64,000 nt of DNA, taken from NCBI RefSeq assembly GCF_020382885.2, contig NC_058511.1, positions 18,466,504-18,530,503 on the forward strand, given 5' to 3'. Under the pieces are notes generated by a model. The model searched no databases. It was not told the origin of the DNA and was given only the letters and a program-made list of their open reading frames with translations. Each line of letters opens with the position of its first letter. Position 1 is the first letter of the stretch. Origin of the DNA: Scatophagus argus (taxonomy: Eukaryota > Chordata > Actinopteri > Scatophagidae). Positions 10,060 through 64,000 of this stretch are shown piece after piece. Position numbers and translations under genes: made by a program.

Positions 10060-10088
10060 CCAATCAGAGGGCAGCAATTGGTGGGCGG
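10060..10088. promoter_or_regulatory. CCAAT box pair with GC box
   Basis: CCAAT is at 10,060-10,064, an inverted CCAAT (ATTGG) at 10,077-10,081 and a GC box (GGGCGG) at 10,083-10,088. Three promoter elements within 29 bp in AT-rich DNA suggest a real promoter, read either way. The minus-strand candidate exon at 9,418-9,650 is the nearest possible transcript. No TATA box was found at a fitting distance. Confidence 0.4.
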
Positions 10089-10859
10089 TGAATGGGACTG
10101 GGATGAAGAGTATATTTACTGCATGAACAGATTTAATCGTTTCAGCTGTCTAGTATACCTATGACAAAGTTCAGGTTCAGTTTATACATAAATCATCAAA
10201 ACTAACAGACAGTAGATTTTTATTAGCCTTTAAAAGTTTAATTACAAGTATGACAAGGTCTCAGTAAAACATACCATACTTACATTTAAGTTCTGATATT
10301 TCATAGTTAGATTTCTGATGTAAATATGATTTTAGTAAACGGTCGGAGATTACATGCTATATTTCTTCCAACTGACTGATTGATTATATGAAAAACAGCT
10401 GTACAAACGGAAGCGTGTCTTTTGAGTTTTACTTAACGCTGGAGCGCCACCTTCTGTTTACACATGGAACAACATTTAGTCCGAGGCTCATTCTGAGGGC
10501 AGCTCATCTTCACACTGTAATCTGCAGCTCGAGGAAACACCTCAACAAACAAAAGATACAGCTAGAAACACGCTTCCTGGAATCATAATAACACATGCTT
10601 CATCATAACGTTTCATTGTTGGTGGTAAGTGTATTGTATGTTTATTCAGTTAGAAGAATCAATGCTGCTTTGACAGTTTCATCTTGGCAAATACGTAGGT
10701 AATCATAAAGCATTATAATCCCCATCAGTCAACCTGGTTTATAACTGGTCAAAAGTATCCATAAGACATTTGAACTTATAATTCATCATGAATCAGAGCA
10801 ATATTATCGCATGACTGTCGATTTAGTGCATCAGAAAGCATCATGTGCAGTGCGTACAG

Positions 10860-11096
10860 CTGTTGCTCAGGAGGTAGACTGATTATCTATCAGTCAGAAG
10901 GTTGGTGGTTCAATCCCACATGTTGTTAAAGTATCCTTGGACAAAACCAAATGACTGCTCCATCGGGGTGTGAGTGTTCGTGTTATCACTCCTCCATGGT
11001 ATCCTGTGTATCAGTGGGTGAATGCTCATGTTGTAAAGCACCCTGAGTGGTCAGTCACACTAGAAGAGCGTTATGTAAATACAGTCCATTTATAAA
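10860..11096 (+). repeat. tRNA-derived SINE
   Basis: The head has an A-box-like GCTCAGGAGGTAGACTG and a B-box-like GGTGGTTCAATCCC. The body continues with the typical fish SINE text (GTATCCTTGGACAAAACC, then AAAGCACCCTGAGTGGTCAG) and ends in TATGTAAATACAGTCCATTT. This resembles a widespread percomorph tRNA SINE. Mismatches to the usual consensus indicate an old copy. Confidence 0.8.
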
Positions 11097-11099
11097 TCA

Positions 11100-13215: not shown

Positions 13216-13688
13216 ACGCTATATAGACAAAAGTATCTAGACACATCTCTTTATGGGATTGCTCTTCAGGGGTTGGGCTTTATTCCTTACTTCCACTGAA
13301 AAGAAATCTTAATGCTTCAGCATACCAAGACATTTTGGACAATGCTATGCTTCCAACTTTGTGGCAACAGTTTGGTGAAGGCTCTTTTCTATTTCAGCAT
13401 GACTGTGCCCCAGTGCACAAAGCAAAGTCCATAAAGATATTGTTGGATGAGTTTGGTGTGGAAGAACTTAACTGGCCTGCACAGAACCCTGACCTCAACC
13501 CCATCGAAAACATCTTTAGGATGAAATGGAATGGGATTGCAGGCCTTTTCGTCCAACATCAGTGCCTGACTTCACAAACACTGCAAAATCTTGTGGCAAG
13601 CCAAAACTGTCTACAACTTTAGAATGAGATGTCACAGTCCCTGTTGGTGCAATGGTCAGGTATTCCAATACTTTTGTCTATATAGTGT
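13216..13688 (+). mobile_element. Tc1/mariner-like relic with transposase remnant
   Basis: Both ends carry the inverted repeat TATATAGACAAAAGTAT (left at 13,216, right ending at 13,688). Inside, 13,335-13,622 encodes 95 residues of the transposase catalytic core, including [14 protein letters not shown] and WPAQNPDLNPIEN, which hold the second D and the E of a Tc1-type DDE triad. The N-terminal DNA-binding part and first catalytic D are missing, so the copy is non-autonomous. It lies just downstream of the SLC22 gene's last recognised exon. Confidence 0.85.
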
Positions 13689-40200: not shown

Positions 40201-41283
40201 GATGACTATGATGACGGTTCACAGGCATGTGTGATGAATCAGTGGTACTGGCACTATAAACAGCCACAGCTGTGGGTAAGGGTTGCGCGTAACAGCAGCT
40301 GTTCTGATGCTGTTCCTCACTGATGAAACACAGCAGAATAAACTGCACTGCGTTTCTTCTTTGCCATTCTTCCCAGGTCTAATGAGAGGTGAAGCGGGCA
40401 CTAGTGTTGATATGCAAACAGGGTGCTATTGCATCCATTTATGTGGAAGTGGAAATGAAGCTTGTGCATGTGTGTCTGTTTCTGCAATGACTGAGATTCA
40501 TAAAACGGAGTCAGGTTTTACGAAAATCTGACGGAAAGAATGGGTATGCACAATTCTGTCTTTGTGCTTGCACAAAGTTTTGTGCATCTGGTTCCAGGTA
40601 TTTGAAGTCTTTTGGTTGCTTCTGATCTGAGCTCTGCTTGCCAGTACAGAGGCACACAGACTAGTTCTTTGTGCAGGGTGTTGTTGACACAGTGCCCTTT
40701 AACTGTAATACTGAAAGCTTACAGGGATCCTCCTTTAGCCTGGAAGAAGAACTGTCTGATCCAGAGCACCCCATGGAGCCCCTGCTCCAAAACCTGTGGC
40801 CTGGGCATCTCTGTGCGAGTCAACAACGACAACAGCAAATGTGAAATGAGGAAGGACCGACGCCTCTGTCTGCTTCGACCGTGTGAGAGGAGTGTGATGA
40901 AGAGTGTTAAGGTAACAACTTAGTGAAATTCTATTCGTGTGTTGACATAGTTTGGTATAATCCAAAAATACACTCTTAAAAATCACTATTCCCTCTCACA
41001 GGTGCCAAAGGGAAAAACCTGCCGGCCTAAATTCCAAGCAAAGAAAGCAGAGAAGCTGTCGCTCTCGGGGTGTACCAGCACCAAGAAGTTCAAGCCCATG
41101 TACTGCGGTGTCTGTACAGACAAGCGCTGCTGTGTCCCCAACAAGTCACGCATGATCAAGGTCAACTTCACATGCCAGGGAGGCTCCAACACACAGTGGA
41201 AGATGCAGTGGATAACATCCTGTGTGTGCCAGAGGAAGTGCAATGATCCAGGTGACATGTTTTCTGACCTGCGGCTGCTCTAA
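31202..41283 (+). CDS. ccn6: CCN family member 6 (WISP3)
   Basis: A secreted matricellular protein; human CCN6 loss causes a cartilage disease. Exons: 31202-31249, 37868-38144, 39220-39447, 40718-40911, 41002-41283; 342 aa against 354 in human, phases consistent. Exon 1 encodes the signal peptide ([16 protein letters not shown]), which joins CFSRAQ as in human LAQ-FCCRVQ. Exon 2 is the IGFBP domain (GCGCCKSC). Exon 3 is the VWC domain, where only four cysteines remain, the known CCN6 peculiarity. Exon 4 is TSP1 ([13 protein letters not shown]) and exon 5 the cystine knot ([10 protein letters not shown], ending CVCQRKC). The exon 2 acceptor is TAG at 37,865-37,867; the later CAG sites break frame or homology. 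The first exon is 6.6 kb away and is the least certain part. It converges on tube1. Confidence 0.92.
32283..32550 (+). repeat. Second plus-strand copy of the (ATGG)n-tailed retroposon
   Basis: Closely similar to 1-275, beginning with the same TTTGCATGTTCTCCCTGTGC and ending in GGATGGATGG. It lies in ccn6 intron 1 in the same orientation as the gene. Like the first copy it is truncated at its 5' side at the same sequence, which suggests a common truncation point or a shorter family. Confidence 0.8.
32551..34967. other. ccn6 intron 1, no further features seen
   Basis: AT-rich intron sequence. A C run of about 14 followed by CA repeats lies at about 32,731-32,751. No exon, RNA gene or transposon relic was recognised on either strand. 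Confidence 0.5.
34968..35052 (+). pseudogene. tRNA-Asp(GTC)-like pseudogene
   Basis: The anticodon loop CTGTCAC (anticodon GTC) is preserved in TATCTCCCCCTGTCAC. The T-arm side reads GAGTTCGAGTCCCCGACAGG, close to the Asp form. The D-arm half is badly decayed and extra bases lie between anticodon stem and T arm. It is followed by a T run (35,054 on), as after Pol III genes. Start is approximate. Confidence 0.5.
35188..35262 (+). pseudogene. tRNA-Asp(GTC)-like pseudogene, second copy
   Basis: TTTAGTGCAGTAG matches the D arm and CTGTCACGCAGAAGACTGGG the anticodon and variable region of tRNA-Asp; the T arm reads GGATTGATTCCCCCGACTGG. The D-loop and anticodon stem are altered by A-rich substitution, and one extra C is in the T stem. 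TTTT follows shortly. It lies about 210 bp after the first Asp-like copy. Confidence 0.6.
35461..35533 (-). tRNA. tRNA-Val(AAC)-like gene, probably a pseudogene
   Basis: The minus strand gives 73 nt with GTTTCTGTAGTGTAGTAGTT, TATCAC, the anticodon loop CTAACAC (anticodon AAC), GCGAAAGGTCCCC and TTCAAAACC, matching eukaryotic tRNA-Val(AAC) throughout. Against the usual sequence, the T stem has two mismatched pairs and the acceptor stem one. Several changes (for example TTCGAAA to TTCAAAA) are C-to-T or G-to-A at CpG. The D loop has lost one of its invariant Gs. A clear Pol III terminator is lacking. I judge it tRNA-derived but probably inactive. Confidence 0.65.
35735..36258. other. GC-rich island with overlapping open frames, unrecognised
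   Basis: In AT-rich intron 1 of ccn6 this half kilobase is unusually GC-rich. It is open for 111 codons on the minus strand (35,735-36,070), 81 codons on the minus strand (35,952-36,197) and 81 codons on the plus strand (36,013-36,258). None shows a domain or family I recognise. Open frames in several phases are expected from high GC alone. It might be an old repeat, a processed-gene fragment or a regulatory island. Confidence 0.35.
36259..37867. other. ccn6 intron 1, distal part
   Basis: AT-rich intron sequence with an A-rich tract at about 37,710-37,738. No exon or mobile element was recognised. The pyrimidine-rich end at about 37,846-37,867 is the acceptor of ccn6 exon 2. Confidence 0.5.
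38252..38295 (+). repeat. TAG/CTA triplet hairpin
   Basis: A run of GTAGTAGT, ACTACTAC and again GTAGTAGTAG blocks can fold back on itself as two overlapping hairpins. It lies about 110 bp into ccn6 intron 2. It is probably a decayed triplet microsatellite. Confidence 0.7.
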
Positions 41284-41876: not shown

Positions 41877-44800
41877 TCATCTGGCCATGCTGAGTCTGGG
41901 GGCGTCAGGCATGAGTCTCCCCTTGGTGAAATCCAGATGGTGGTACTCTTCAATCAGTGAGCTGAGAGAGCTGACGGCGTCTGAGAAGAAGCTCTGCTCC
42001 ATCCCTTCCACATGCAGGTAGTGGTGTAAGTGGGCCTTCACAGACACAGAGAAAGGTATTTTACAAACTGATGTGCACTCCTCTTTCTCGCTCTTAAAAG
42101 AAAGCATGCAGCAGTACATACGGAAAATTAAAAAAAAAAAGGGATGTCCCGCCATCAAGAGATTGGGATTAACGATTTCTCGTCGCCAGTCACTGGATAG
42201 CGAGCTCAGTGAAAAGCCGACCAGTGACTGCTCAGTTGTCCCTTTTTCAGCTTTCTGTTTTATTAAGTTTTTAGATTCTCCCTAGATATTGTGTTGCCAA
42301 TAACAGAGAGGAGAGGCTGTTCACAGATGGCCTACAGTGAGGCGTGTCCTGGTGCATTGTTTTGCTTTTGAGGCCGGAGAAAACAACTGCGTCACTGACC
42401 AGTAAAGACCTAGTCAAAGGTGCAATGTTTTTGCTGCTATTTAAAGGGCGCATCATTTAGATGGCAAGATCAGTTTACTAAATTTGACTGAGGGAACGGA
42501 ATTAAACGTTTAGCTTCTGAAATAAAGATTTTTAGACAGCTCTAACGAAGCTCAGAATTTATCCAGAGGACAGTTGGCTGACTCCAAACAGTTTCACTGT
42601 ATGGACCTGAACTATGTGTGATCTTTTGGATGTGTAGAAGAACACGGGATATTAATTAACATTAGATCCTGACTGATCCTGTCAGCGTGTTGGGACATTT
42701 AAATAATCACTGATGTTAAGCTGCTGTGCCACATGCATACAGTGTTTCTCTTAATTGGAAGATGACCTTATTGTTTCTGCTGCAAGTAATGTAGTTAATC
42801 AAATCATTTTTATGACCCAGCCCGCCTGATTTGCACGTCAGTATGACACACAGCAGCCTCTGTGATGGGACAGAGGATCATGAGATGATGGAGGCAGAGG
42901 GGCCATCACCCAGGAACAACATGCCTGTCCTTCAATAACAAAGAAAGAGGAAATGCTCATATTTGGACAAGGTGATAGATTCCTTGATAAGTGACAGATT
43001 CCATTGCCGAACCTTCTGATGGGCTAAAGACTGCAGAATTTCTTAAGATGCACCTTTTTCCTGTAAAGCTTGGTAAAGCGGTCTCTCAGCTCCATGAATG
43101 TGGGCTTCACGCAGGTGTTGTTGGCCAGGGCTAACAGGGAGTGGGAGTGACCTACAGGAGGCACTGAACACAGGCCCGTCTTCCAGCCTTCCTGGTTCCA
43201 CGAGACAAAAGGCAGTGAGGGCCTCAGTCTAGAGCAGGAAGAACATTACATATCAAATGCAAGAATGGAGATTCAAAGGATTTATATTTCACTTATGGAA
43301 TAATCTACAACATTGAGGCCAAACATGCTGAGGCCAGTATAAAAATGGTACTGCAAAGTAACGGCTCTCAGCTGATAGAAGTTATTTTCGTGACTGATTT
43401 ATCTTCTGGTGATAATTTCTTTCATTAAGCCAAGACATAATTAGATAGAGACACTGTCACACATCTTTTTGTTTTGTGTCTGTACTTTTTTTGGTGGGGT
43501 GGGGTCCCTGCATATTACACTCTTCATAAAATAATAAATGAAATAATAAACTAAAAAATATCCACCAGTTTCTGACATTCCAAGGTGAGGTCTTCAGTTA
43601 CTCATTTGAGCAGCTGAAAAGAAACACAGACAACAGCAAAATATGCAGCAGTCCATCCGTTGGTTAAGCTTCCTTGGTAGGCAATACTACAGGGCTCTTC
43701 CTCCTCTTTTGCACCATGGTCACACATAAGTATCTGCTCTCACAGCAGCTTCTGTTTCTCTTGACATCACCACATATGAAAACAAAGTCTGCAGGGAGTG
43801 CTGAGGGGGCGGAGCAGTGGAGAAGCGGGTGTTTACAGAGTCATGAAGCCTTGCTGTCGGTGCTGAATGGTAGTACTATTTGGGCAAAATGAGTATGAAG
43901 GTCATCTATGGGCCTAATCGTGGTGGGCGTACAGACACGTTGGCTGTTTTGTTGGTGCAGAATGAATGGGAGGGTGGTGCTCTGACCTCTCGATGTTCCT
44001 GCGGAGGTCAGACACCTGCACGTTGCCTCTGACCATGAGGGCGCAGGCCAGGTATAGGCTGTGTTTCGGGTCGGCTTGGATTAGCTGGTGGTCTTTACTG
44101 AAGGCATCGGTGAACATCTGATCCAGTCTGGAGGATGCAGTTAGAAAAGAAAAAAAACCCCACAAAACAAAGCTTAGTGCATCTTAGAAAATAACAGCCT
44201 CTGGTGTTTGTTTCAGCAGTCCATTTACATCTTTACTGGCTATAGTTAAGTAAGCCGAGTTAGACTGAGGGCCAATGTGTGAGAAAGAAGAACTTTTGTA
44301 GCTTTATTTATCCAGGCATGTTTTGCTGAGCCAGCGAGATATTTTTAAGCAACACCCCGCTCTGCATTCATAAAGTCACATATATTCAACTCTGGGAGCT
44401 GCTCAGTACAACCACAACTCTTTCAGACCAATGAGCACCTCCTCTGGAGCACATGAGGCCTATATGGCTCACACAAGGCCACTTTCATGGCGGTTGTTGT
44501 TGGGGAAAAGTTGGGAGGCAGATCAAATGGTGCTTTTCCTGTCACAAGCTTGCAGCATAAACGTCCGGTCGCCACCCTCCCCATGCGAGTAAATGAAAGC
44601 CGGCTTTGTGGTGCCTCTTGATTTAACGGTGGGACTGATCAGTCCAGAAGTTAATAATCATGTATATTAACAAGCAGATAGAAAAGTGGAGCTCTTCTCT
44701 GGAGCCCCAGACAAGGAAAATGCCCATGTTTTCAAATAAAAATTTGATTTCATCATATAAAATTTGTCATGAGACATATTCATATTATAAAATGCTGTTA

Positions 44801-47800
44801 ACTAAATCAACAATCCTTAATCAATAAAGCAACAAGCCCGACCTGCGATACATTAAGTTCCACATGACCAGTGCTATTTCATCATTACGGTTCAAGTACC
44901 AGCGTGACGAAATACAACCCACTTTCAATCAGTGAGGTCATCACTGCAGGGGTTCCCTTCTCATTCATCTTTACAGTCAAGATGAGGCACGTGTTGTGGG
45001 AACGACGGAGTTTAAGCGAGCCCAATATGTGGAGCTCAGCAGCATTCAAAACAACTGTGAGATAAAAATAGCGGCAGAGAGCTGACCTTCTGGTGGGGAC
45101 GCTGATATCTGCCAGTGTGTAGAGAGGAGTGAGGCTGGGCACCAGATAATGTAAACGAGGGTAGGGCACCAGGTTCATGGCAATCTCATTCAGATCCATG
45201 TTGAGAGATCCTTCAAACCGTGCTGAGCTGCGACAAAGGAAACTTACAGTTAGAGGCATGGGAAAAACTGCTGGAGGTCACACTGATTTTGTCATGAGCC
45301 ACTCACTGAATAACAACTGTATAACGTATGTCTATGTCTGTCTGTCTGTCTGTCTCTCTATGATCATAGACCTACTTAAAGCCAATGCTAACATTACCCA
45401 CCAACAGCTGAATGCGAGTAGTGGTTAACCATTGCAGCAGAGCCCAGCTGTCAGGTGATTTTCACTATGTTCAAACCCAACAAAAAAAAAAACTGCGATG
45501 CAGGCAGGCTGACATGTCATTTTATTAACAATTTCTTCATGGTCTGTAGCCATTTTCTCATTCCACCCTGTTACATTTAATTTAATGAGTTTAATTGAAA
45601 CTATCAAACATTCCATCAAAAAGGATGCAAAAAGGTACATATTGCTATTGTTTCAATGGCCAGGCTTAACCAGCCCCTTTCCCAAAGCATACAGGAGTCT
45701 GCTGTATGTGAGCAAACAGTGGTACAATACCTGGTAATATTGAGCAGCAGGTTAGCCACAATGTTATTCATGGCATCAAAGGGCTTCTCTGCCCTGCTGA
45801 GCCCACCCTGCCCAGAAATGATGGTGCTGTCTCTCTTGATCACCGACCCTGGCTTTCCACCGTGAGACATACATTTAATCTTGTTCACAATGTCGCCCAG
45901 TGACTTGAGGAGGAGAAGTGAGGGAGAACAAAAACTCATTAAAGCTCATTTCAATTTGGGCATGCTGCAAAGATATTTGCAGAGATGGGGAGAGCCTGGG
46001 GACTTTTACAGCGTACAAACCTGGTTTTCAACAGGCAGGACACAGTCAGCGTGCTCTGTGAGCTCCCTCATTGCCAGCACACTGTTGTAGGGAGACGTGA
46101 CGACATCATCCTCCGCAGATGGATATATGGCGGTGACGATTCGACACACCTCAGGGAACTCTTCCTCCAGCAGGCTCAGCACTCTGGTCCCCAGGCCAGA
46201 GCCCGTACCTCAAATTCAAGATCAGCACATTTAGTTTCTGGTGTAAGCTGACGTTTTTTAAGGTCATGCAAGCCTGGCTTACATATGCAGAGTAGAATAC
46301 TGCAGTAGCCTGATTTTGTCAGCTAAATTTCCCAGACATAAACCTTGTTTCTCAGGCATGTATAGATATAAGGCAGGTATTTTGAAAACTGATACATATT
46401 TGTGCTGTCTTTGTGCCTTACCTCCTCCCATAGAATGAATGAGAAAGAAGCACTGCAGACAGTCACAGTGCTCTGCTGCCTTCCTCAGTTTATCGACTAT
46501 CTGCTCCCTGTAGGCTGAACCGTACGTCATGTGTCCGACCGCCCTGGACAAAAAGCAGCACATCACTGTATATTAGGGCTTACATTTAGAAACTAAGATA
46601 TTATATAGACAAAACAGCTAAGAAATTTATAGACAAAACAGTTATTAATTAATCAGTGGATTAATTAATAATGAAATAATTATTAGTTGTAGCCATACAA
46701 AATATACAACAATAAGAATTTAAAAATTAGCTTTCTCTGCATATGAACTTAAGAAGCTGAACAAGGACTTTGCACAGCTCTAACAAAACTTTGACAGAAT
46801 ACACATCTCTGTCTCACGTGAACTTCTTTTTAATATGTTGAAAAATCCTCTCCCAGTATCTGATAACAGCAAGCATGTCATTGCAAAGCTGATTCTTCCC
46901 ACAATGGCTGTCAGCCTAAAGCCTATAGAGGGAATATTCACAGCAGTTCTGCCAACAAGCACAACCGACCTTTCAATCGTACTACACTATGTACGCCTGA
47001 GAAAGAGCAAAGTGGGGGAAAAACGACAAACAAGTTTCTTTGTTGGGTATTTGAATGTGTGTGGCTCAGTAAGATTGCAGGTTTTAATATTAAAATACAA
47101 TATACAGACAAAAGTATTTGGACACACATCTTTTTATTATTGAATTCAGGTGTGGGATGGGGCTGTTTTTCAGGGGTGGGCTTGGCCTCTTACTTCCAGT
47201 GAAGGGAAATCTTAAAGCTTCAGCATAGCAAGACATTTTGGACAATGCTATGCTTGCAACTTTGTGGCAACAGTTTGGGGAAGGTCCTTTTCTATTCCAG
47301 CATGACTGTGCCCCAAGTCCATAAAGACATGGTTGGATGAGTTTGGTGTGGAAGAACTTGACTGGCCAACACAGAGCCCTGACCTCAACCCCATCCAACA
47401 CCTTTGGGATGAACTGGAACAGAGACTGTGAGCCAGGCCCTTCCGTCCAATATCTGAAGGCACAAATGCTCTACTCCATGAATGGGCAAAAAATTCCCAG
47501 AGAAACACTTGTGAAAAGCCTTCCCAGAAGAGTGGAAGCTGTTACAGCTACAAAGCTGTCTGTGTGTTTAGAATGCAACGTCAGTAAAGTCTCTGTTGAC
47601 GTAATGGTCAGGTGGCCAAATACTTTGTCTATATAGTGAATTATTTAGGACTTTCAAAAAACACTCTGCCAATCCAATTTCCCTGAACATCACGCTCTGT
47701 ATGATGTAATGGAACGTGTGGATGACTGTAAACAAGACATGTTAAAACTGATGACTGCTGTCAGCCATGTGTGCTCGTGAGCCGATGTCCTGTGGCTAGT

Positions 47801-50800
47801 CTGTCTCTCACCAGTTGTTGCCTGAACCTGACACGTCCGTAAGGAGCTGAGTGCTGTCGAACACTTCTCTCAAAGGGCCCTGTAGGATCTCATTGACTAC
47901 GCCCTCCTCCATGTCCACCAGCACCGCCTGTGGATTCAAATATGTGAGTAATTAGGAGAGCACATATATCTCACTTCTATTATATGCAGAGCTAACGCCT
48001 TTCACCCCTGCCGTCATTCCATAACTCCTCTTTGTAACCTTAACCAATGGATGCCAAACCTTTCATTACGCAGAATCCAACCCTGACCTTGACCCTGACT
48101 CTAAAATAAGCCGTTGCCCCTGTGAAGACCAGAAGTACTAAAAAAAATGTGCTCCTACAAGCTGTTTTCTGGTAATAGGCAGAACTTACCCTGGCCTTCA
48201 GATGTTGGATTCTCCCACCAACACCACAGGCCCCCCCACCACTTTTCCTGGGAAAGCAAAGCAAAGCAAGGACTCAAAGGACTCCAACTATATGAAGGCA
48301 CATGTCTCAATCCATATCGCAGTTACTGGATGAAGGCAGCTGTGAATACCTTGAGTCCACATTTCTGAAAAAGCTACTGAGAGCCTCGTCATACAGTCCT
48401 TTCTGCGTAGGGGAAAAACACAGGATATTAGGAGGTGCCATTAGCTGCCATGGTAACTGATAAAAATGTCTTTATGAGTGTGTTTATGAGACAGGGCACG
48501 AAAAGATTGGACTTCTCTTAAAGGATAATTCAGATTAAGCCAAAATCAAATCAAAATAACTTGACCACTGACTATTGATGCTTATTAACACAATGAGACT
48601 CCTGACAAATAATCATCAGTAAAAAATGTTCAGAAAATCATATCACTTTACCGTAATGCAGCTTTTCAGAGAAGGAAAAGACAACACCTCTGACATATCA
48701 AGATATAACCACGTTAAAAATTAAAGACAAAGTCCAGTGTCATGCTGGGACATTGATATCTGGATCCAAGTCTTATTTTCAGTACATTTCAAGTTATGGC
48801 TGTCATTCTACTTTGTTAAGACAACGTAGTTCTCAAAAATATATTGTAATACTATGATATTTTAGCTGGGAGTATTAAAGGCAGTAAATCTACGAAAATA
48901 AGACCCAGGTTGGAAATATCACTTAAATCAGAGTTAAAAGAGTCAAACTAATTGATTCAACAAGGATTCGATTTAAATCAATTTCCAAATGAACTAGTAT
49001 TTCAAATCAGAAGCATATTTTTTATTTTTGCCAGGAACATTTCATCACATAAGTCATCATTCAGTTAAATGACTATTAAAAGTGCAAATTCATTAAATAC
49101 ATTAGCATTAAGCACTATCTTCTAGAACTGCAAATAAATATTTGTATTATTATTTATTTATTGGCAAATGTCTAGATTATTATTTATTTATTTTGATCCA
49201 TATAACTTCAGAAAACTGCTCATCACAGTTTCCAAGATGCCCAAAGTGACAAGTCAGGTCTCAGCAACATCTATAAATTACACTTTATCACAGTCCAGAA
49301 CACAAAAAAATATTTAATTAACCATAGTATAGAAAACAGAAAAAAGGAGCAAAAGCTCAGATTTTAAAAGCTGGAGCCAGTAAATGTTTCACACTTGTGC
49401 TTGACAACCGAAATGATTAATCACTTATCAAAATCGTTGGTTATTCATTTCAGCCCTTCTAACCCACAAGGTGAGAAATGATTTATGAAATATCTTCCCA
49501 AATTAAATGTTAATTTTTGCAGGCAAAGGATGAATCAGAACAAATATGAGTGGAGCGGTTGGTAAGGGTGTGGATCACATGCACCACAATCATGTGGGAA
49601 AAAAGAATGGAATGCTGCCATCATTACTGTTTAATTAATTACACCTGTGCTTTCCCTGCTAGTACTTGTCAACATGTCTGTTGCAAGAAAAGCCTAGGGC
49701 TATTAAATATTTAAATAAATATTTATTGAATACAATATAAGGAAACATATAATCTAAGCTAAAAGTGTACTGACTGAGGAAGTGTGTTTGGCTCTAGCTC
49801 AAGAGTGGAGCATCTTGTTAGACAGTGTGTCTTTGCAGCACTGTGTGCATTGAGGGAAGAAACACTTCAGTATATCTTTTACTCCAGTATAAGTAGCAAT
49901 ATGCAAATTGGGGCAGCCGTGGCCTAGAGGTTGGAGAAGCGGCTTGTGATTGGAAGGTCGCCGGTTTGATTACCCCACCGGACGGGCAGGAAAAATTTGG
50001 GTGTGGTGGAGTGATAATGTCCCCACCCCCCATTAGCCGGCTGATGTGCCCTTGAGCAAGGGGCTTAATCCCCAATATGCTCCCCGGGCACTTGATGCTG
50101 CCCACTGCTCCTGTGTGTGTTTCACTGCAGGTTGCATGTGTGTGTGTGTGTTTCAATCAGTGATGGGTTAAATGCAGAGAAGTAATTTCCCAGCTTGGGA
50201 TTAATAAAGTTAAAAAAACAAAAAAACAAAAACAAAAACACAAACACACGGAACAAAATACAGTCATGTATTCAAAAACTTACTTTATCAAAATACTTCA
50301 ATTACTAATTTGTTATGCAGAAAGGATACTTCTGAATAATATATTATTGTCTACCAGTTATTAATACATTGATATTTTAATCATTTTAACGTTGCAGCTG
50401 GCAAATGTGGAGTTTATTTTAACAAATTTATATTTTAAATTTTATATTTCAGGCTATAATGCATAAGAATTTATTTGTATCTTTAAAATAAAAAGTAACT
50501 AACGATGCCAAATGAATATCCTGAAGGAACAAGGACACGAGGATGTACTCGCAGAAAGTTGCATAAAATGAAAATAGTCAAGTGTAAAGTATCTCAAAAT
50601 CGTAATTTAGTACAGTACTTTAGTAACTGCACTTTCCTATACTGACGGTGAGTGTATTAGCACTTACTTTATTGACATGGGCATGTTCTCGCAAAGCAAG
50701 ATCCCAAAACCTGCAGCCAACCTGGTTGCCACACTGTCCAACTAAAGAACACGGGTTAAAAGCACAATTAACATGGGTGAGCTTAATTCGTCCATGTAAA

Positions 50801-51037
50801 TCAGTCGTAAATCAACTCAACAAGCCAAGCAGCCATATTGAAGTTATGAGCGTTTACCTAGTTGATAGATAGTGGTGCAAACGTTACCTGACTACAAGGC
50901 TAACACAACACAGCAGACGACAGCTAGCTATAGGTAGCTATAATATTAACTCGTTTCTTGATACCAACATTAACTACTTCACTTCAAGTGACTGCACCCA
51001 CGTTTTACTCACCTTGGACAACAACTGACTGTGTCAT
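41877..51037 (-). CDS. tube1: Tubulin epsilon chain (tube1)
   Basis: Epsilon-tubulin, needed for centriole triplet microtubules and centriole stability. Twelve coding exons: 51013-51037, 50668-50741, 48350-48402, 48190-48247, 47812-47927, 46422-46543, 46021-46208, 45731-45903, 45087-45227, 43987-44127, 43054-43228, 41877-42035. All phases agree and give 474 aa against 475 in human. It starts MTQSVVVQVGQCGNQVG, the tubulin N-terminal fold. The GTP-binding signature GGGTGSGLG is split between exons 6 and 7. Epsilon-specific text includes EHCDCLQCFFLIHSMGGG, KPFDAMNNIVANLLLN and RFEGSLNMDLNEIAMNLVP; the end is LPRLSMA-like. Weak splice sites: the exon 7 acceptor is GAG and the exon 11 donor GTGCAT. 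It is head-to-head with dnal1 and tail-to-tail with ccn6. Introns hold a Tc1 relic and a SINE. Confidence 0.97.
45335..45358 (+). repeat. (TGTC)n microsatellite
   Basis: A short run of TGTC units followed by TCTC lies in the tube1 intron between exons 8 and 9. No function is implied. Confidence 0.7.
47097..47638 (+). mobile_element. Tc1/mariner-like relic in tube1 intron
   Basis: The ends are the same inverted repeat as the 13.2 kb element: left TATACAGACAAAAGTATTTG, right TACTTTGTCTATATAGTG. The interior keeps transposase text in shifted frames: FQHDCAP-like, then LDWP.QSPDLNPIQHLWDEL-like near 47,360-47,430 and [12 protein letters not shown] near 47,520-47,560. Frame breaks and internal loss make it inactive. 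It is inserted opposite to tube1 transcription, between exons 5 and 6. Confidence 0.85.
49910..50247 (+). repeat. tRNA-derived SINE in tube1 intron
   Basis: The head reads GGGGCAGCCGTGGCCTAGAG, with an A box in GTGGCCTAGAGG, and then GGTCGCCGGTTTGATTACCC with a B box. The body includes CCCTTGAGCAAGGGGCTTAA and TGCTCCCCGGGCACTTGATG, and the tail is GGGATTAATAAAGTT plus (AAAAAAC)n. The boxes are nearly intact and the tail unbroken, so it is among the younger insertions here. It lies in the intron between exons 2 and 3, antisense to tube1. Confidence 0.85.
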
Positions 51038-51420
51038 GGCTTTAATACACTGACTTAAGTCATATTTAATGGTAAAGTCTGTCGAAAGCTGTCCGCTAAA
51101 ACGGCTTTTTGAAAAAACATTTGAACGCGTCTTTTACTCGCGCCTCCACTATGTTTGGTCGAGTGCTGATGACGTGTCACCATTGCTTTATTAGAGAAAA
51201 AATCGTTCGACCGCTCACTGAGAAAAAGAATCTTTCACAAAAAGATACAGCCACTTATAGTATACGATATACACAGTAATGTTAACAAAAGCAGTCCATT
51301 GTTATTTCGTTCATGTAAGATTAAAAGATGTTATCTCAACATCCATGTCATTGTTACATTACACAGCTTGTAGGCTGCTTTTCAGTGTCATAGCAACCAG
51401 CGTAGATCTCAGCCGTCAAC
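51038..51420. promoter_or_regulatory. Shared bidirectional tube1/dnal1 promoter
   Basis: The two start codons face away from each other with 383 bp between them, so both 5' untranslated regions and both promoters must fit here. No TATA box is evident at a fitting place. An X-box-like site lies at 51,384-51,397 next to the dnal1 start, and a second half-matching site (ATGGTGAC on the minus strand) at 51,176-51,189. A CRE-like TGACGTGTCA lies at 51,170-51,179. X-boxes bind RFX factors and drive ciliary genes. Confidence 0.75.
51384..51397 (+). promoter_or_regulatory. X-box-like RFX site
   Basis: AGTGTCATAGCAAC fits the general X-box pattern RTHNYYWTRRNRAC at all but one position (G for T at position 2). 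The right half AGCAAC is an intact RFX half-site. It ends 23 bp before the dnal1 start codon, within or near the expected 5' untranslated region. Confidence 0.45.
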
Positions 51421-54112
51421 ATGGTGAGTGGTTGTTTTGTCGGACCGTTAGGAGTTGCTATTTTCTTTTATTTTAGGTAATTTATGCTGTCTTAACTGTA
51501 ACCTCAAGTAATGACTTTGCTTTGCTTGACATCACATTTAACACTATTGTCGCTGTGAGCTAACATGGGCTACCTTTAATTAGCTAGTTAGCTCACCCTA
51601 AATGTTAAATTAATAAAGTGTAACGCAGCTGGCTAACATCAACTCTGCTCTAAACACATGTGGATGTCTGTGTATATTTTGTCGTTTTTCCTATTGTTAA
51701 ATCTTAATAAAGCCAAAACCCCAAAAATGAAAATGATGAAGAAGACGGTGTATGTTAAATTCCTACAGCGTAGTAAGCAGCGTGTGTTTAATGTTACACG
51801 TTTGCTAGCTTGTCTGCAGTGGTATTTTGTTGCTGACTACATAATCGCCTCTCCCTGTCTAACTGAACTGGATAATATTCCTCCAGGCCAAAGCGACGAC
51901 TGTGAAAGAGGCACTAGTCAAACTGGTGAGTGGCATACAGATACAGCTGGAAAACACTTATACGGTGTGATGCAATTATTTATTAGTGTTCTTATAGACA
52001 CTTAGATTTCGTGAATTGAAGTTCATTTTGTAGTTCCATAACTGTAACACAGTTGTAGTTGCACCTTTTGATGTGTGTGTGTGTGTGTGTGTGTGTGTAC
52101 AGGAGGAGAAATCAGGGGAGAAAGTGAGCGAGGCTAAAGCCATAAAACTGTATGGCCAGATTCCTCCGATTGAGAAGATGGATGCATCTCTCTCCACACT
52201 CACCAACTGCGAGTGAGACCTGTAGCAACCTAAACTGCCTTTTACAACAGTTAGTCAATGTATTAGTCATTGGTTGATGTGTTCAGTATCTTGTACCACA
52301 AGGTAGAAGTAGTTGCAGTAAGTCTGCTTTTAACATTCCCATATCTAACTAAAGTGAGACAAACTTCTGAATACCTTTTTATGTTTCTGCAAGCAGTTTG
52401 GAGACATTTTAAACCATGACAGTAGTCTAGTTTAGGTCATTTATTGTCCTTGTGCATGTCCCTGATTGAAGGTACATCAAAAGTACAGACTTCAGTGCTT
52501 TGTTTTGCAGAAATTCAATTGATCAGCAACAATAATTGACAGAATAAATCCACATATTTAGCAAGTGGATCTAGTGTTTAGTCACTAATCTTTGAAATGT
52601 TATTGTACTGTATCTTCCACAGGAAGCTGTCTCTATCCACCAACTGCATTGAGAAAATAACCAATCTCAACGGCCTGAGTGAGTGAATAAATACACACTA
52701 TAACCACACACAAACACAATCTGCTGACAGATGGAAATGCTGTTGTAATGCAATGTTGGATTGTGTGCTTCCAGAGAACTTGAAGATATTGTCATTAGGA
52801 AGAAATAATATAAAGACGTTAAGTGGGCTGGTAAGTTACATATAAAACAGAATGAACACTAACTAGACTGATTTTCTTTTATCATCTCTGTCTTTTGCAT
52901 CATTCCTTGAGTCTTTTTGACACAGTTTTTATAACTTTTTCTAACTTGAAGGAATTTCAAAATTGGTTACACATGCTGTATACACATTTTGAATGAGCAT
53001 TATTATCTTTCAGTTGTGTTTCTGTCTGTTTGTGCATGTGTGTGTGTGTAGGAAGCAATAGGAGACACATTAGAGGAGTTGTGGATCTCCTATAACTTGA
53101 TAGAGAAACTGAAGGGAGTCCAGTGCATGAAGAACCTCAGAGTCCTCTACATGTCCAACAACTTGGTCAAAGAATGGGGTAAGCTACATTCAGAAATATA
53201 CACATAGCTAATTAGATTGGAAAAATTACTATGTTGTGTTTATTAATGGACATTTATGAGGCTAAGTGACCCATTTCAGAAAAAAAATCTACTTATCTAA
53301 CTCCTTCTGTTTTATTTAGGATGATAAACATGTCAGGAGTGAATTTTTTTAATATTTTTTTTCAGTGATGCAAGGTTAGCTGCATTGTCTGAGGAAGCAC
53401 AGCGGCTTCTTCATGTGTTGTGGAGAGGAAAATGCTTATCAAAACTGACACAAAGTTTAATTGAGAGTAGTAAAGGTTTCTAACTTCTTAGCAATGATCT
53501 CTTTATTTTATGGCAATTATGTTTTTAAAGCCAATGCACTGATCATTTATTAGCATTGAAAACCTCAATGTGGCCCTCTTTAATTTGGTATATGGTGTCT
53601 TCTGCGTTGGGTAGGGGAGTTTGTGAGGCTGGCTGAACTACCATGCCTTGCAGACCTGGTGTTTGTTGGAAATCCTCTGGAGGAGAAACATTCAGCTGAG
53701 GGAAGCTGGATGGATGAAGCCACTAAAAGACTACCGAATCTAAGGAAACTAGATGGTAAGAGTGTTAGCGGACATTGCTGTATAAATAACTTAACCACAA
53801 GCTAATTATTGCCATGTGATTCAGGGTAAGAAACCATTTTGGTAAAAAAATGCTGAAACACTTTAAATAGAGCAGTTTCTTCAAGAAAATTCCTATTTTC
53901 CCCATTGTAAGCACCAAATTATGTATTTCTTTCCGGGAAATGTCCCAGAAACTTTGACAAAACAATGACTGACTTTTACTCTGTCAGTTAAAGTACAAGG
54001 CACATAACAGAAATAAGTTGCTGTGTGGAAGATATGATTGGTGATTGTCTTGTTGTTTCCAGGAACCCCAGTCATCAAACAGGAAGAAGATGAGGGAGCA
54101 GGAGAGAGCTGA
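51421..54112 (+). CDS. dnal1: Dynein axonemal light chain 1 (dnal1)
   Basis: A leucine-rich-repeat light chain that binds the outer-arm gamma heavy chain and tubulin in motile cilia; human DNAL1 mutation causes primary ciliary dyskinesia. Exons: 51421-51423, 51887-51925, 52103-52212, 52623-52678, 52775-52830, 53052-53178, 53615-53755, 54063-54112. Phases agree and give 193 aa against 190 in human. The first coding exon is the start codon alone, followed by [10 protein letters not shown] as in human. Leucine-rich repeats: [40 protein letters not shown] and [11 protein letters not shown]. The cap is [13 protein letters not shown] and the tail is acidic. Two acceptors (exons 3 and 6) follow TG repeats rather than pyrimidine tracts. 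It shares a promoter with tube1 and converges on lama4. Confidence 0.97.
52072..52098 (+). repeat. (TG)n tract at dnal1 exon 3 acceptor
   Basis: About 13 TG units run up to ACAG, the acceptor of dnal1 exon 3 at 52,103. The tract replaces the usual pyrimidine tract. UG repeats in RNA are the known binding target of TDP-43-type proteins. Confidence 0.9.
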
Positions 54113-56137: not shown

Positions 56138-59100
56138 TTATGCCGCTGGACAAGTTCCAACGCTGACTGCTCCACTGACCAGTACAGCTTTGCTGAAGCT
56201 CACTTGGCTGTTATTGATGGTCAGGTTTCTCATACAGCCCACATAGGCCTTCCTGGTGGCAATGCTGTCTGGAAGGAACAGATCTGAGAGGAGGAAGGAG
56301 ATTATGATTAGAAAGGTGTAAGGGTATAATGGGAGAAAAGCTCCAAAACTGTGATCCTGGCTCACCTGGAGCTCCACCAATGAACACTGGCTTCCTGGTA
56401 TCCGTGGAGCTGGGGTTCAGAGGCCCCACCACATGGTTGACCTCAGAGTCCACATCCAGCTGGACCACGTTGGCATCCCGGATTACTATGATCGACCAAG
56501 GCAGAATCCATCAGTATAACCAAAACGCTTTAAAACCCAAGGTGTTTCAAGAACAAAGCACTGTGACTTATATTCCTTATTCCTGTATTCAGACATTTTA
56601 CTTAAGTACCAATACCACAATGTAAGTAAAGTAAATGTTTTGTATTTAAATGTTTACCTAAGTTAAACTATTAAAGCATTAACACAAAAATACACTAAAG
56701 CTCAGAAAGTAAAAGTGCTCACCATGTAGAATGACCCCTTTAGGCAATACAGAATTAACATGTTGCAGAATTTTAAAGGGTCACTGCAGCTATTTCACAT
56801 ATTAAGATGATTTCCTTAAAGGTCATGGTTGTGAAAACAGCCATAGAATTTCTTCTATGGCTCGGGAGAAAACCTTAAATTCCTGAATAACATCATAATG
56901 ATGCCAACAGGGTGACCGTTACCTCGGCTTGGAGATTACAAAACAGTAAGCCTGTAAAACTGTCTTCATGGATTTTGAAAGAAATGAGCATAATTTAATA
57001 TTTAATAATTTAGTAATTAAGCTTTAATGGAAGGTGGTTTCAATTCAAAAGGCTGTTACTGAGTTGCATTATGGGAAATGTAGGATGTTTCTGGAGCTTG
57101 ATCCATGTAAGGGACAAAATGTCATAACCTTTCAGTTTTTGTAGCTCAGGTTTGACCTTTTCTCAACTTTAATATTGTAGCCAGTGGATGCGAAGCTGAT
57201 TCTAACACTGTATACTATAGCAGCTATCCAGTGTATACCTGAAATTATATATTGTGTATATGATACGCATGTAACGTTGTGTATATGATACAATATGATG
57301 CTGGTAGTTCAACTAAGAGCAAGGCATCACGCTTTATCACAAAAAACTCAACTTAAATCATTTTAATGAAGTGAATGAAAAGAACCTCAAAACTGTACTT
57401 CAGTACAGCAATTGAGCAAACGTTCACATTCAATGACAGTGTTCAAAAGTGGATTTAAATCCTTATATGTACAATAGATCTGTATTAACGACACTGCCAC
57501 AATCAAGCTGAATAAAATATTTTCAGGTGAGGTTTGGCTTGCAGCACATCTGAATAAAGCTGAATAAAAAGAACTATCAATCAGAAAGAGTAGGGACTGT
57601 TCAAATAGCTTGCATTGATTTTGGGCAATGCAAATGTGTGTAATTTAAATTTTGCCACTCCAGGACAACATTTGTCATTACTTCAGATAATGAAGGTGTT
57701 AGACAGCTGCTATGGGTGTGCTCATTTGAGGGAGTTGTTAGACCAACTCATTGCTTGAATCTTTGCTTAACAGCAACAAAACTAAAAATGACATTGATGG
57801 TGTGCGGCCCTAGCCACCGTTGGCTCTTTTCCACTTTTCAGCGCTCATCTCTTTAGTTGTTTTTCTTTTAATTAGCATTTGAATGTTAAATTGGAAATGC
57901 TCACCGGTGATTCTGTGCCAGCTGCCAGCACACACACCCTGTCTTGGTGATACCTTTGTGAAGAACTCATGAGACCCATCGTTCACAAGAACCACCACCT
58001 GGAAAACAGACGACAATTATTTATCCATACTTTATAATCAGAAGATGCATTTAGGATTAACATTATCTGTCCTGAATGTGTATGGTTTTCTGGATTAGTA
58101 TGCCGTTGACTTACGTCTCCTTGATGAATGTACATGGTGAAATAGCCCTCTGCTGTGCGCACATGCAGTAGCACACCAGATGCCACACGGGGGCGAACCT
58201 CCACCACCAGCTCAAACCTTAGCCCGAGGTCAAATGTTTCATCTGAGGAAGAGAGGCAGAGAGGGCAAGATGAAGTGAGCTCTGTGTGCGTTATCTCTGG
58301 ACCTTATCTTCTTGTCGAATTAATCAGCCATGTTTCTCTGTGGTGTGAAATTACTCGACTCGCCCAACAGCTGCAGCTCAGTCCCCAACTTCCTAGGGGC
58401 CTTCACCTTCCCCCATTCTCTCCTCGGCACAGACACAATTTTACCACAGCTGCGCTGAGGGTATCAAGTTCCGTCAACCAACCAAACTCTCTCCATGCAC
58501 ACGGAATGGTGAAAGACTAGAGGGACTTGTGGGTTTCCCAAAAGGAAATTTAATGAGCCATGTAACATAACAGATGTTCAGTCTGCAAAGAGTTGCAGAT
58601 CCTGCCAAATGTCCACAGTGTCAGATTTGGGAAGAAAGGTTGCACAAACTTTGTATGCATAAAAAATGATTTCGAAAAACATTCCTGCAGTTCACTCACA
58701 GAGTTAAAGCAAGGCGTCTGGACTTGTGAAGATTGACTTGAAGACGTTTCGCTGCTAATCCAAGCAGCTTCATCAGTTCTGAAAAAACTGTCTGGTGGGG
58801 AACAAATATATACACCTCAGTGGGTGTGACTAAGTGAAACTAAATAAAACAAAGGATCTGATAGTCCTGCCAATTTGTCTAAGTTTTCAAGTCAATCTTC
58901 ACAAGTCCAGATGCCTTGCTTTAACTCTTTGAGTAAATATGACCTGGATGACTGAGAATCTCCACAGATAAATTCCTGCAGTTCATGTTGAAGCTCAAGA
59001 GGAGAACAAGTCTCTGCCTTTTCTTTTTCATTAAAAAAAAAAAGACTAGATATGTACCTAGCACGACATATCCTCCGTCTTCTGAGAAGTAAGTTCCTGC

Positions 59101-62100
59101 CTCAGAGAGTCCCTCAAAGCATGGAGTCACCCCAAAAGTCTCTGCAGTGGAGGACATCAGCTGCCCATCAAGTTGGAGGTTCTTCAAACAGCCGGTAAAG
59201 CTGTATGCAGAGCTTCTCTAAAGGAACATCCATGGAAACACATATAAGAAGACAGAAAAATAAGAAAAATAAGAAGTTCAAAATTCAGTTTAGTAAGTGG
59301 TGTAAAGCGTGAAAGGAAAATGAGACATTGTTCCTATTACAAATAAAAGTCAGCTCAGTACACTCAGAAGTTTTGCCACTGCCATTGGCTTATTGTGGTA
59401 TAACTTGTAGCTTATGGTGGCTAATGCCAGCTAATTTTGGATAGATTTGGCTGTATAACTGACTGCTTAATCAGTCGGTTTACCTACTTAATGACTCTTA
59501 TCTTGTTGGACTACTGATATGATGCATTTTGGCCTTTATCAGTAATTGCTGTTACATAAGGTAGCTTTAAAGCAGCAGCAATCAATATTTTTAACAGTTC
59601 ACCTAAAAATTATCTTCTTCCCTCCATGCTGATGGAAAGTGTGGTGAAGTTTGTCAGTCCACAAAATGTTTTGCAGCAAAATAGCATTGCAGCATTCTCT
59701 TTAACAATGAAGGAGCGGGAAACTTGTTTTCAAAGGTACTTTCAGCTTAGCGGTTTCAGTGAAGTTTTCAGGGTGTAAATAAAGTCATTTCAAATCAGTT
59801 AGCTTCTTCAGTTGTTCATGAGAATGTTGCTATAATGTTTTGCTCTGAAGCTTCAGAAATGCTTTATGGACTAAGAAACCTCACCTGACTTTCCATCAGC
59901 TTGAGAGTGAGTAGATAATAACTGTGAAAGAAAATTACTTTTTATTACTGTAGGATGCCCTCCTGTTGAGTTCTAAGAGGAAGACGTTCACACTGGTGTT
60001 GAAGTTGAGTCGAGCTGACAGGACTATATATACTCTAGAAGATTTAGTACAAGATCACTGTTTCATTCAAGGTGAGACCTTGACAAAAGATTCATACATT
60101 TCAACTGACCTGTGCTGAGTGTGTTTTTAATGTTAAATCTCTTCCACATAAACTTTTAACCCATACCTGAACATTCTTTTGGGCTCTCCCTGGAGGGACT
60201 CCTCCAATATAGATGGGACTGCTGACATGCCAGGAGACACTGCTTCCTTGAACTCTGTCTTGCAGCACTGTGAGGCCATCAATTATTAACCGCCCCATAC
60301 TCCCATCACGGATAAAAATAACCTTGAGCAGAAGAAGAAGAGAGAAGGTTGATACATAACTAAACATACATCCACTCATGTATATATACTGATTGAAAGA
60401 ACTTACATTGTGCCATGCACCGTCATTGTATTTATCTTCGCTCTTGATTTTGACTCTTTGATCTGCGACGTTGAATGTGTACACTAGCTTCCCATGAGCC
60501 AGGAAGAGAGCCATGAAGTTGTCCTCTTGGACATCAGATACATAAAAGATGAGGCCAAAGGGTGAGTGGGTCTTTAGGGACAAGGAGAAGTGGGACCTGG
60601 GAGACGGTCGGTACATTTAGTTATGTAAAAGAGAGTACATGTGCAGAGTCAGATTTTGAACAGACTTGACCTTCAGGTTACTTTGCTTTACATACCTCTC
60701 AGAAAAGGAGTCTGGGAGGTCTGAGTAGTGGTGCCTGCTATTGGCGATGCCACCGTAGTGGAAGGCTTGGCGAGTTGCTGTGGGACTTGAGGAGAGGTAG
60801 CAGGGTTCAGTGTGCACCTCTGATGGCTCCTGGTCATCACTGTTCATTTCCATCAGCCCATGGTGGAGGCCAGACTTCTCCCTGCTAACCTATGAAAGCA
60901 TTTATTGAATGTTAGGATGGCCCAGATCATTGAAACCACAAAAAAAAAGACAGACCCTCCCCCGGAACAATGGTATTCATCGTGGTCTACTGAAGACACT
61001 CTTTTTATTTTACCTTCTGAGACTGGTTCTGTTTGGCTCTAGAGGAGTGCCTTGACAGTAGAGCAGCAGGGGGGCGCTGGACTGGACAGTCCTGCAGGGA
61101 AGTTTGAACTTTCTCTGTGTATCGCTGGAAGTCCTCAGACTCAATGTCCCGGTCCTGTCTACAGAAACACAGAGAAGCAGAGTGCTTCAGAGATGCTCTC
61201 AGCACACCAACATGTCCCCATAGCAACAAACTCCTTGTCCTTAACTACTTAGCTCACAGCTGCAGGAACTAGAGCCAAATCCTCAAATAGAATGCTCTCA
61301 ACATAGTCTCAGTCGCAGTAGAGAGATGTGAAGGGGACACTTTAGTCTAGTGTAACCTGCAGGATAAATTATTTGCATCCTCTCTTACTCTAGTAACTGT
61401 TCACTGATTGTTTACCTGTTGATGTAGGCATAGCTGATGCAGCCTGTGAAGTTCTTTAAGCTGCTGCTTGGAGACCCTCCATAGTAGAAGGTCTTCACAG
61501 TAGACCCTGATGGGGATTTTGCGGCTGATGACGGACGTTTCTTGTCCTGCTTGTCTTTGTCGTCCACCAAGAGTGAATATCTAAGGTGAACAGTTAAACA
61601 GTCATTCAAACCTGATACTAATACACTATCCACACTAATACTGTCTTTTGAAAATGCTCAGCTTTTGCTACATTACCAATTTGTGTCCAAACTACTCCAT
61701 GATACACACTATATGATATAATATATATATATTATTAACATTTTGCTTACAGCTTGGAGTAGCGCATTCCTTGTAATATTCCACTAACATGAAAAATACC
61801 GTAAACCCAACAACTAAAGGTATGATATGGAGTATGTTTTCAGGAATTTTTTCTTTTATATTTCTTCATTTTTCTGCTTGAATGCAATAAAAACACATCC
61901 GCTTGTACTTTATTTGTTTTCTGCACCTACAATTAGGTGGTAAATTCATCCACTTACTGAAATCTGAAATCTGAAAGATTATGTTAATTCATTGATTCAT
62001 GTGCAGGTGCAGTTGATGCTACACATGATTTTTAAATAGCCACACTTTTTCAGTCCACAGGACTTTTACATACCATTTCTTTCTGTCAGCATATACTGGC

Positions 62101-63799
62101 ATTAAACTGGAGATCACAAGGTGGATTCTAAATCTTAGAACAAACTTTGAGTAGAAGTTAAAAATGTGTAACTTGAGCGATTCCCTGCATAAAAAAGTCA
62201 CAGCGCCCACTGGCAAACCAGTCCAACTCTGGACCACTGAGGGTAAAGGAACTGAAAACAGCACATATTCTATGTTAATTTTCACTTTGAGTATCTAATT
62301 TTCCCACAAAAAAAAAAAAAAAAAAAAAAAAACTCACAATACTTTCACACTGCATATTCTTAGCCCAGGCCTACATTCCTACCACACACAGTTTGTTAAC
62401 CCAGGATCAGCCCAAGCCCAGGGCTACATGATTGACACTGTACTTTTACCAGCCCTAGGTTAAGGAACACATGACTAATTGACACCCATGTGACCACCCA
62501 TGTGACTACTCTTTTTGTTACTTTAGACCCATTTCACACTGGCACCTTTTAGCCCCATGTTTACGTGACTTTCAGGGGATAACTCCACATACTTGAGGCT
62601 AACCCTACGTTGGAGCAGGGGCAGTGAGCCCACTTTGGAATATGCAAGGGTTGTAGCAGTGTGAAGTTAATGCTTCTAGCTCCATACTAAGTGTGAAAAG
62701 CAATCTGATCATTCTGAAATGTAATTAATAGGGACTGAGAACTGAATTGGATTCTGCTGTCTCCATATGTTTAAATTTAAGTCTATCTAATGTTATACAG
62801 CTGAGAGGAAACACCTGTTAACAGGACTCTGCAGCTGTGAAGTTGAATACTTACTTCTGACTGTTCACTGAGGCCACTAAGAAGTGTGTCCTTCCGTCGT
62901 TGTATTGCTTTTTGTGTGATTTAACTCGAGTGCCTCTGCAGTTCAACACCACTGCTCCGTTCTCCAGGGAGATACTGAACTCATCAGACTGAACACAAGA
63001 CAAAATAAGTTTATAGTTAATACATAAGCGGCACAGAAAGGTTTTGAAAGGATTTCTTTTCCTCTAGTTCAAAACATATTAAAGGCAAATTCTTGATTTA
63101 TCTTATCTTTATGACAAAGTGATGCTTTTGATCCATGTTTTAACTCCAAAGTTAAAGTTTTAAAGGTAAATGCTGTACCAAAAAGTAATTTCCTCACACA
63201 GTCACGTGAAATTTAGCATTACAGTTAGCATTTATCTAAAACGAGAATTTTATCCATATGTATCAAAATAAAGATTAATGTATACCCCCTCGCTGTGGAA
63301 AAATAGAAGTCCGTTGGGCTGCAGTGATCTAAAGTTAAGTCCTCCCTCAAAGTTGTCGAAGGGTGAAATCTTCCCTGTGGATCCCAGGTAGCCCTCTCCA
63401 GTGAAATAGGCTTTACGGGACATCTGTCACAATGAAAACACACCTCACTTTCATTACCTATCACCTTTCACTCTCAGCTCAGCCTTCAGTTCAGTAACGG
63501 GAATATTGATTGACTCAGTTGTTGTTACTATAATTGTTGAACTAGAACAGCCATTTATTTTCTCTAAATTGAGAGTGAAAATTATTTGTGTATGCATTCA
63601 GACATTTGTGAGATCCAGTGCATTATCACAGACAGTTTGTATCTGGAAAGCGGTGGAGGCAGCACTTACAAAGGACTCCTCAGGGCAGCCACTGCTGATG
63701 CCAATGGTACCAGGCTCCTCCAGCAGGTTGAAGTCTTTTTTCTGGAACTGGAAACCTTTCACACAGCCCTTCAGGCCTACAGCAGCAGACAGCTCAGGC
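56138..63799 (-). CDS. lama4: Laminin subunit alpha-4, C-terminal LG domains (partial)
   Basis: The alpha chain of laminins 411/421 in vascular and muscle basement membranes; the LG domains bind integrins and dystroglycan. Thirteen exons seen: 63670-63799, 63286-63423, 62855-62988, 61416-61580, 61014-61158, 60696-60889, 60407-60596, 60167-60322, 59058-59217, 58115-58242, 57905-57998, 56366-56485, 56138-56283. Phases agree; 632 residues to the stop. They cover the end of LG2, LG3 (FDNFEGGLNFRSLQPNGLLF), the LG3-LG4 linker, LG4 (SPFGLIFYVSDVQEDNFMAL) and LG5 (WHRITVIRDANVVQLDVDS). The final SGAVSVGTCPAA matches human LAMA4 (SGAVSINSCPAA) rather than other alpha chains. The 5' two thirds lie beyond the right edge. 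An inverted-repeat element sits in the intron at 58.7 kb. Confidence 0.97.
58694..58934. mobile_element. MITE-like element with long inverted repeats
   Basis: The outer 43 bp on the left (from AGAGTTAAAGCAAGGCGTCT at 58,700) and on the right (ending at 58,928) are reverse complements with one mismatch; with the flanks the match extends to about 49 bp. The middle is about 140 bp and codes for nothing. It lies in a lama4 intron between the exons ending at 59,058 and starting at 58,242. No certain target duplication was found. It resembles a common fish repeat text (ACTTGAAGACGTTTCGCTGC). Confidence 0.75.
62308..62332 (+). repeat. Poly(A) run
   Basis: An uninterrupted run of about 25 A in a lama4 intron. 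It may be the tail of a retroposon, but no recognisable body precedes it. Confidence 0.8.
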
Positions 63800-64000
63800 C
63801 TGTGGTGACACACATATTGTCACCATCTTATAGTGAGACATCCTTCTTACAGTATGCTGCCAAATTACAAAGTAGGTTTACTTATATCTGCAGTGCACTA
63901 ATATAATATTTTGGCCACTTGGCCACAACAAACTAAAAACACATCTCTTATAAACAGTTTTTATGGTTGATGGGCTAGCAAACAGTTAATTACAGAGCAA

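Follow-up and report, generated by a model that had tools for sequence, protein, structure and literature searches.

TMEM138 and TMEM216 are neighbours in some vertebrates and lie apart in others, and Lee et al. reportedly described their shared cis-regulation in 2012. The history of this pair is said to have been revised in a later paper on basal vertebrates, which by analogy would be a warning for dating the pairing of tube1 and dnal1 presented here. In human, TUBE1 and FAM229B form a divergent pair, with FAM229B sitting between TUBE1 and LAMA4, and DNAL1 is located on chromosome 14. A review (PMC12148096) gives the arrangement of TMEM138 and TMEM216 as head-to-tail, over about 23 kb, with RFX4 and co-expression reported, and TUBE1 and FAM229B both stand in the gene list that one of two papers (PMC4457201, PMC9318831) gives for the human 6q21-q22.33 segment, where their order is not given. 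Medaka has 1737 divergent pairs (start sites <1000 bp apart), amounting to 13% of genes, and 49.68% of its non-overlapping divergent intervals are <400 bp (PMC11676430). Because of this base rate a divergent pair 383 bp apart is ordinary, and adjacency alone is no demonstration of co-expression.

The tube1-dnal1 pair of Scatophagus argus lies in a window of 64,000 nucleotides, the whole stretch of DNA that was analysed, and comprises the following features.
51038..51420, no strand: stretch separating the start codons, a putative bidirectional promoter for both genes (sequence, CpG, motif scan)
41877..51037, minus strand: tube1 (epsilon-tubulin), 12 coding exons, 474 aa, intact (exon assembly and Pfam)
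51013..51037, minus strand: tube1 coding exon 1, 25 nt (exon assembly)
51421..54112, plus strand: dnal1 (axonemal outer-arm dynein light chain 1), 8 coding exons, 193 aa, intact (exon assembly and PDB)
51421-51423, 51887-51925, 52103-52212, 52623-52678, plus strand: dnal1 exons 1-4 (exon assembly)
52775-52830, 53052-53178, 53615-53755, 54063-54112, plus strand: dnal1 exons 5-8 (exon assembly)

The start codons stand head-to-head, that of tube1 at 51037-51035 on the minus strand and that of dnal1 at 51421-51423 on the plus strand, and the gap between them (51038-51420) is exactly 383 bp. Exon assembly on the minus strand gives tube1 11 of 11 GT-AG introns; dnal1 has 7 of 7 and reads in a single frame, the ATG alone being its entire first coding exon, and neither assembled frame contains a premature stop. 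The tube1 product matches Tubulin (6e-53) and Tubulin_C (1.7e-31) in Pfam and 158 distinct PDB sequences at E 1e-50 or better, and among the matches listed (60 of the 158) all are tubulin-named, mostly tubulin beta; human TUBE1 served as a guide in choosing the tube1 exons and in applying the label "epsilon". Among PDB sequences dnal1 comes closest to 8j07, in its dynein axonemal light chain 1 chain (E 2.9e-98 over residues 1-188), and a DNAL1 query against prokaryote and viral collections returned no confirmed relatives. The full frames and the Pfam and PDB matches bear out the identities that an earlier note on this DNA had assigned to both genes, and the two exon assemblies confirm its divergent layout with 383-bp spacing. 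As neighbours on opposite strands with their heads facing, tube1 and dnal1 are a genuine, intact, compact divergent pair in an ordinary arrangement, the 383 bp being measured between start codons and set against a definition of <1000 bp between transcription start sites.

The promoter character of the interval was assessed by CpG content and by pattern matching, which add two features.
50761..51523, no strand: continuous run of 383-bp windows (step 20) with CpG observed/expected of at least 0.87, both first exons inside (CpG scan)
51415..51421, plus strand: forkhead-like GTCAACA (RYMAAYA), overlapping base 1 of the dnal1 ATG (pattern match, no chance comparison)

At a GC content of 38.4%, the interval has a CpG observed/expected ratio of 1.14 versus a window mean of 0.32, a value attained by 0.14% of the window's 383-bp stretches (step 10); its raw count of 16 CpGs is attained by 1.1% of such stretches and is less exceptional than the ratio. 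Ratios of at least 0.8 were also found at 4721-5123 (two windows, 0.81) and at 50201-50703, where CpGs are few (5-7). Neither strand of 51001-51440 contains TATAWAWR, CCAAT, GGGCGG or CACGTG, and the matches obtained there are two TTTGAA, one TGACGT and one RYMAAYA (no chance comparison made). The interval is CpG-rich and TATA-poor, as bidirectional promoters are, and its CpG and motif pattern would fit an open TATA-less promoter region. No repeats were found in 50900-51560, and Rfam at gathering thresholds returned nothing for 41000-64000. As separate observations, the two TTTGAA motifs (CHR-like, cell-cycle) lie 12 bases apart at 51108-51125 in the CpG-rich tube1 half and would fit cell-cycle control of tube1, and a second CpG-rich stretch, gapped and with ratios up to 1.03, lies at 9061-9983; Pfam found no domains in the six frames of 7001-11900 around it, and it may belong to a gene not yet recognised, as its promoter or first exon. 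By eye, Tc1/mariner transposase-like fragments were seen at 13227-13619, 17546-17814, 19044-19277 and 47251-47633, the last falling in tube1 intron 5, and about 49910-50245, in tube1 intron 2, looks like a SINE of tRNA origin that carries an A-rich tail.

We favour, at a probability of roughly 0.75, an ordinary compact teleost divergent pair in which both genes are transcribed outward from one CpG-rich region of <400 bp. The CpG peak spanning both first exons fits this shared promoter. The tube1 half, with most of the CpGs, would probably be a broad promoter of the housekeeping type, open in most cells, and the dnal1 core promoter would probably lie within the last 190 bp before the ATG, although with untranslated first exons the start site of either gene could shift. 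Cilia-specific input from RFX and FOXJ1 may reach dnal1 through weak local or more distant sites. A rearrangement may have put dnal1 beside tube1 in the Scatophagus argus lineage or an ancestor, or split the two elsewhere.

Two independent core promoters abutting within the same interval, a CpG-rich housekeeping one for tube1 and a cilia-specific one for dnal1, with control not shared, would have an anatomy identical to that of the shared promoter and differ in wiring; we rate this somewhat below even odds. CpG richness is also compatible with such an arrangement, the CpGs being unevenly split, with 12 of the 16 in the tube1 half (51038-51230) and 4 in the dnal1 half. Depending on which of the reported tissues is considered, one-sided expression was seen in 45-61% of medaka divergent pairs, against co-expression in 37-52% in the same tissues (PMC11676430); the latter figure and the shortness of the 383 bp speak against this reading.

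The earlier note had read the interval as a promoter with X-box-like sites, and two such sites are indeed present.
51384..51397, plus strand: X-box-like site AGTGTCATAGCAAC (consensus and matrix scoring)
51176..51189, minus strand: second, weak X-box-like site AAAGCAATGGTGAC (consensus and matrix scoring)

The scoring used a loose consensus, RYYNYY-WW-RRNRAC with a 2-base spacer (the X-box consensus in PMC4168999 is RYYNYY N(1-3) RRNRAC), the consensus strings GTTGCCATGGCAAC and GTNRCCATRGYAAC, and a symmetric RFX matrix; the matrix was hand-written from a consensus, and neither it nor the strings other than the one quoted are JASPAR-derived. AGTGTCATAGCAAC, 23 bases from the dnal1 ATG, consists of one perfect half-site (TAGCAAC at 51391) and a degenerate other half. 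Its score of 13/14 on the loose consensus, to which the earlier note had pointed, was reproduced, and we rejected it as evidence: the window has 182 strand-positions scoring at least as well, 54% of its 383-bp stretches contain such a match, and so do 173 out of 300 dinucleotide-shuffled versions of the interval. Stricter models give lower background counts, the site matching GTNRCCATRGYAAC at 11/14 (as good in 31% of stretches and 77/300 shuffles) and GTTGCCATGGCAAC at 10/14 (9.7% of stretches, 23/300 shuffles), and ranking 16th in the window by the matrix, where 9.0% of stretches are equal or better and 15 sites score at least 8.19 (rounded) versus 15.6 expected. The opposite-strand site is there as described, at 10/14 against GTNRCCATRGYAAC, and with rank 114 in the window by the matrix it is negligible. 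A CRE-like half-site, TGACGT at 51170, adjoins AAAGCAATGGTGAC; an HLA-type X1-X2 layout of RFX-like and CRE-like halves at 51170-51189 was considered and set aside, as its spacing looked wrong by eye. Scanned for RFX motifs with these strings and this matrix, the 383 bp yielded no site beyond chance, the strictest models finding sites as good in 9-10% of stretches, and the pair serves as a reminder that matches to a loose X-box consensus require a background count.

These counts bear directly on the proposal that RFX factors would activate both genes jointly in multiciliated cells by binding X-box-like sites within the interval, which is compatible with the shared promoter, adding a mechanism to it and excluding nothing, and which we consider doubtful. 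The perfect half-site close to the dnal1 ATG speaks for it, as does a further one, GTTGCTA at 51454 in dnal1 intron 1: two perfect half-sites, as in 51001-51500, are matched by 1% of equal stretches, with bounds picked post hoc. At least one perfect 7-base half-site is present in 11% of the stretches, as well as in 208 out of 2000 shuffles, and the site at 51176 leaves no second RFX site of weight. HEATR2, a target of RFX3, and further targets are described as having sites that pair a good 3' half with a degenerate 5' half (PMC4168999), and core promoters in multiciliated cells are enriched in RFX motifs (PMC5245798). Purely multiciliated control would be odd, because centriole duplication, too, involves tube1 (PMC4741028). 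In the main text of an RFX2 paper (PMC3889689), as far as available, Dnal1 is named once, in a gene-network figure legend, and tube1 is absent. Given DNAL1 biology, RFX co-regulation is plausible; the motif statistics give it no support.

The origin of the pairing was approached through the genes on either side.
37868..41280, plus strand: CCN-family gene, ccn6/wisp3 by position only (Pfam; limits from open reading frames)
56141..64000, minus strand: laminin alpha gene, lama4 by position only (Pfam; outer limits by eye from open reading frames)

The CCN-family gene has IGFBP, TSP1_CCN and Cys_knot above the Pfam cut-off and VWC below it, and the laminin alpha gene (domains at about 56360-62990) matches Laminin_G_2 at 4e-22 in one frame, the other two being weaker and near the cut-off. 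Beyond the CCN gene the minus strand encodes an SLC22-family transporter, with SLC22A6 as top PDB relative of 20392-20679 (E 8.8e-9) and no Pfam match in the three minus-strand frames of 14501-20703. The order in the window is SLC22-like (-), CCN-family (+), tube1 (-), dnal1 (+), laminin alpha (-). Human 6q21 lists in two papers (PMC4457201, PMC9318831; map order not stated) name FYN, WISP3/CCN6, TUBE1, LAMA4 and MARCKS, one of them also giving SLC22A16 some genes ahead, and support the placement of TUBE1 on human chromosome 6 in the earlier note. The CCN6-TUBE1-LAMA4 block looks conserved, with dnal1 the extra gene in it, out of place because the flanking genes match the human block. An Arctic charr gene table (Table 4 of PMC10478403) gives 13 genes in the vicinity of one LG14 window; FYN, SLC22A6, LAMA4, TUBE1 and WISP3 are among these and DNAL1 is not. 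The list may omit genes, and it hints weakly at a pairing that is less than universal. A remnant FAM229B gene was weakly rejected, a FAM229B query reaching a best E of 2.5 in the window. Pfam on the three plus-strand frames from 51421 returned LRR only (E 0.001 in one frame, E 0.1 in two), in a search that small split exons can escape. We found no statement on the tube1-dnal1 pair in the part of the literature covered by our search; one paper names both as cilia-associated proteins and is, in its available text, silent on gene order.

A more elaborate history, in which a rearrangement in ray-finned fishes set dnal1 beside tube1 in the place that FAM229B has in human, the inherited CpG-rich tube1 promoter came to serve centriole and axoneme genes together, RFX acted through the local half-site and an intronic X-box and selection kept the pair, appears improbable to us; if true, fish would have in tube1-dnal1 their equivalent of TMEM138-TMEM216. 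Both of the best RFX-like palindromes in the window fall outside the interval.
48444..48457, no strand: top RFX-like palindrome of the window, GCTGCCATGGTAAC, tube1 intron 2 (hand-written matrix)

By that matrix, GCTGCCATGGTAAC and 61214-61227, the other of the two best and situated inside the laminin ORF span, are far stronger than the X-box-like sites of the interval, with two scores of at least 16.5 seen versus 0.12 expected per 64 kb (two such sites in 1/60 simulations; 3/60 for the better site alone). Candidate RFX input through intronic sites, chiefly the one at 48444 about 2.6 kb from the pair, is nevertheless very improbable in our estimate, this palindrome having been picked post hoc with a hand-written matrix and sitting about 42 bases from the tube1 exon 3 splice acceptor, where other constraints act.

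As it stands, the pair is an ordinary divergent one that lends itself to testing. Should the two genes be co-regulated, one promoter would link centriole maintenance with the supply of outer-arm dynein, and lineages with and without the pair could be compared as to whether adjacency alters cilia gene expression. Like human TUBE1 with FAM229B, tube1 has a divergent partner toward the LAMA4 side; unlike in human, this partner in the fish is dnal1. With TMEM138-TMEM216, ciliopathy genes with reportedly shared cis-regulation, the locus has in common that two cilia genes are neighbours, and it differs in being head-to-head across 383 bp rather than head-to-tail across about 23 kb and in being described here from sequence. 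The interval resembles vertebrate bidirectional promoters in that no TATA was found and in being CpG-enriched for its own window. With the divergent pairs of medaka tube1-dnal1 shares the opposite orientation and, in its ATGs, a spacing of <400 bp, whereas its GC of 38% is below the medaka divergent-promoter mean of 42% (PMC11676430) and, as a further difference, its two genes both encode members of the centriole/cilium system.
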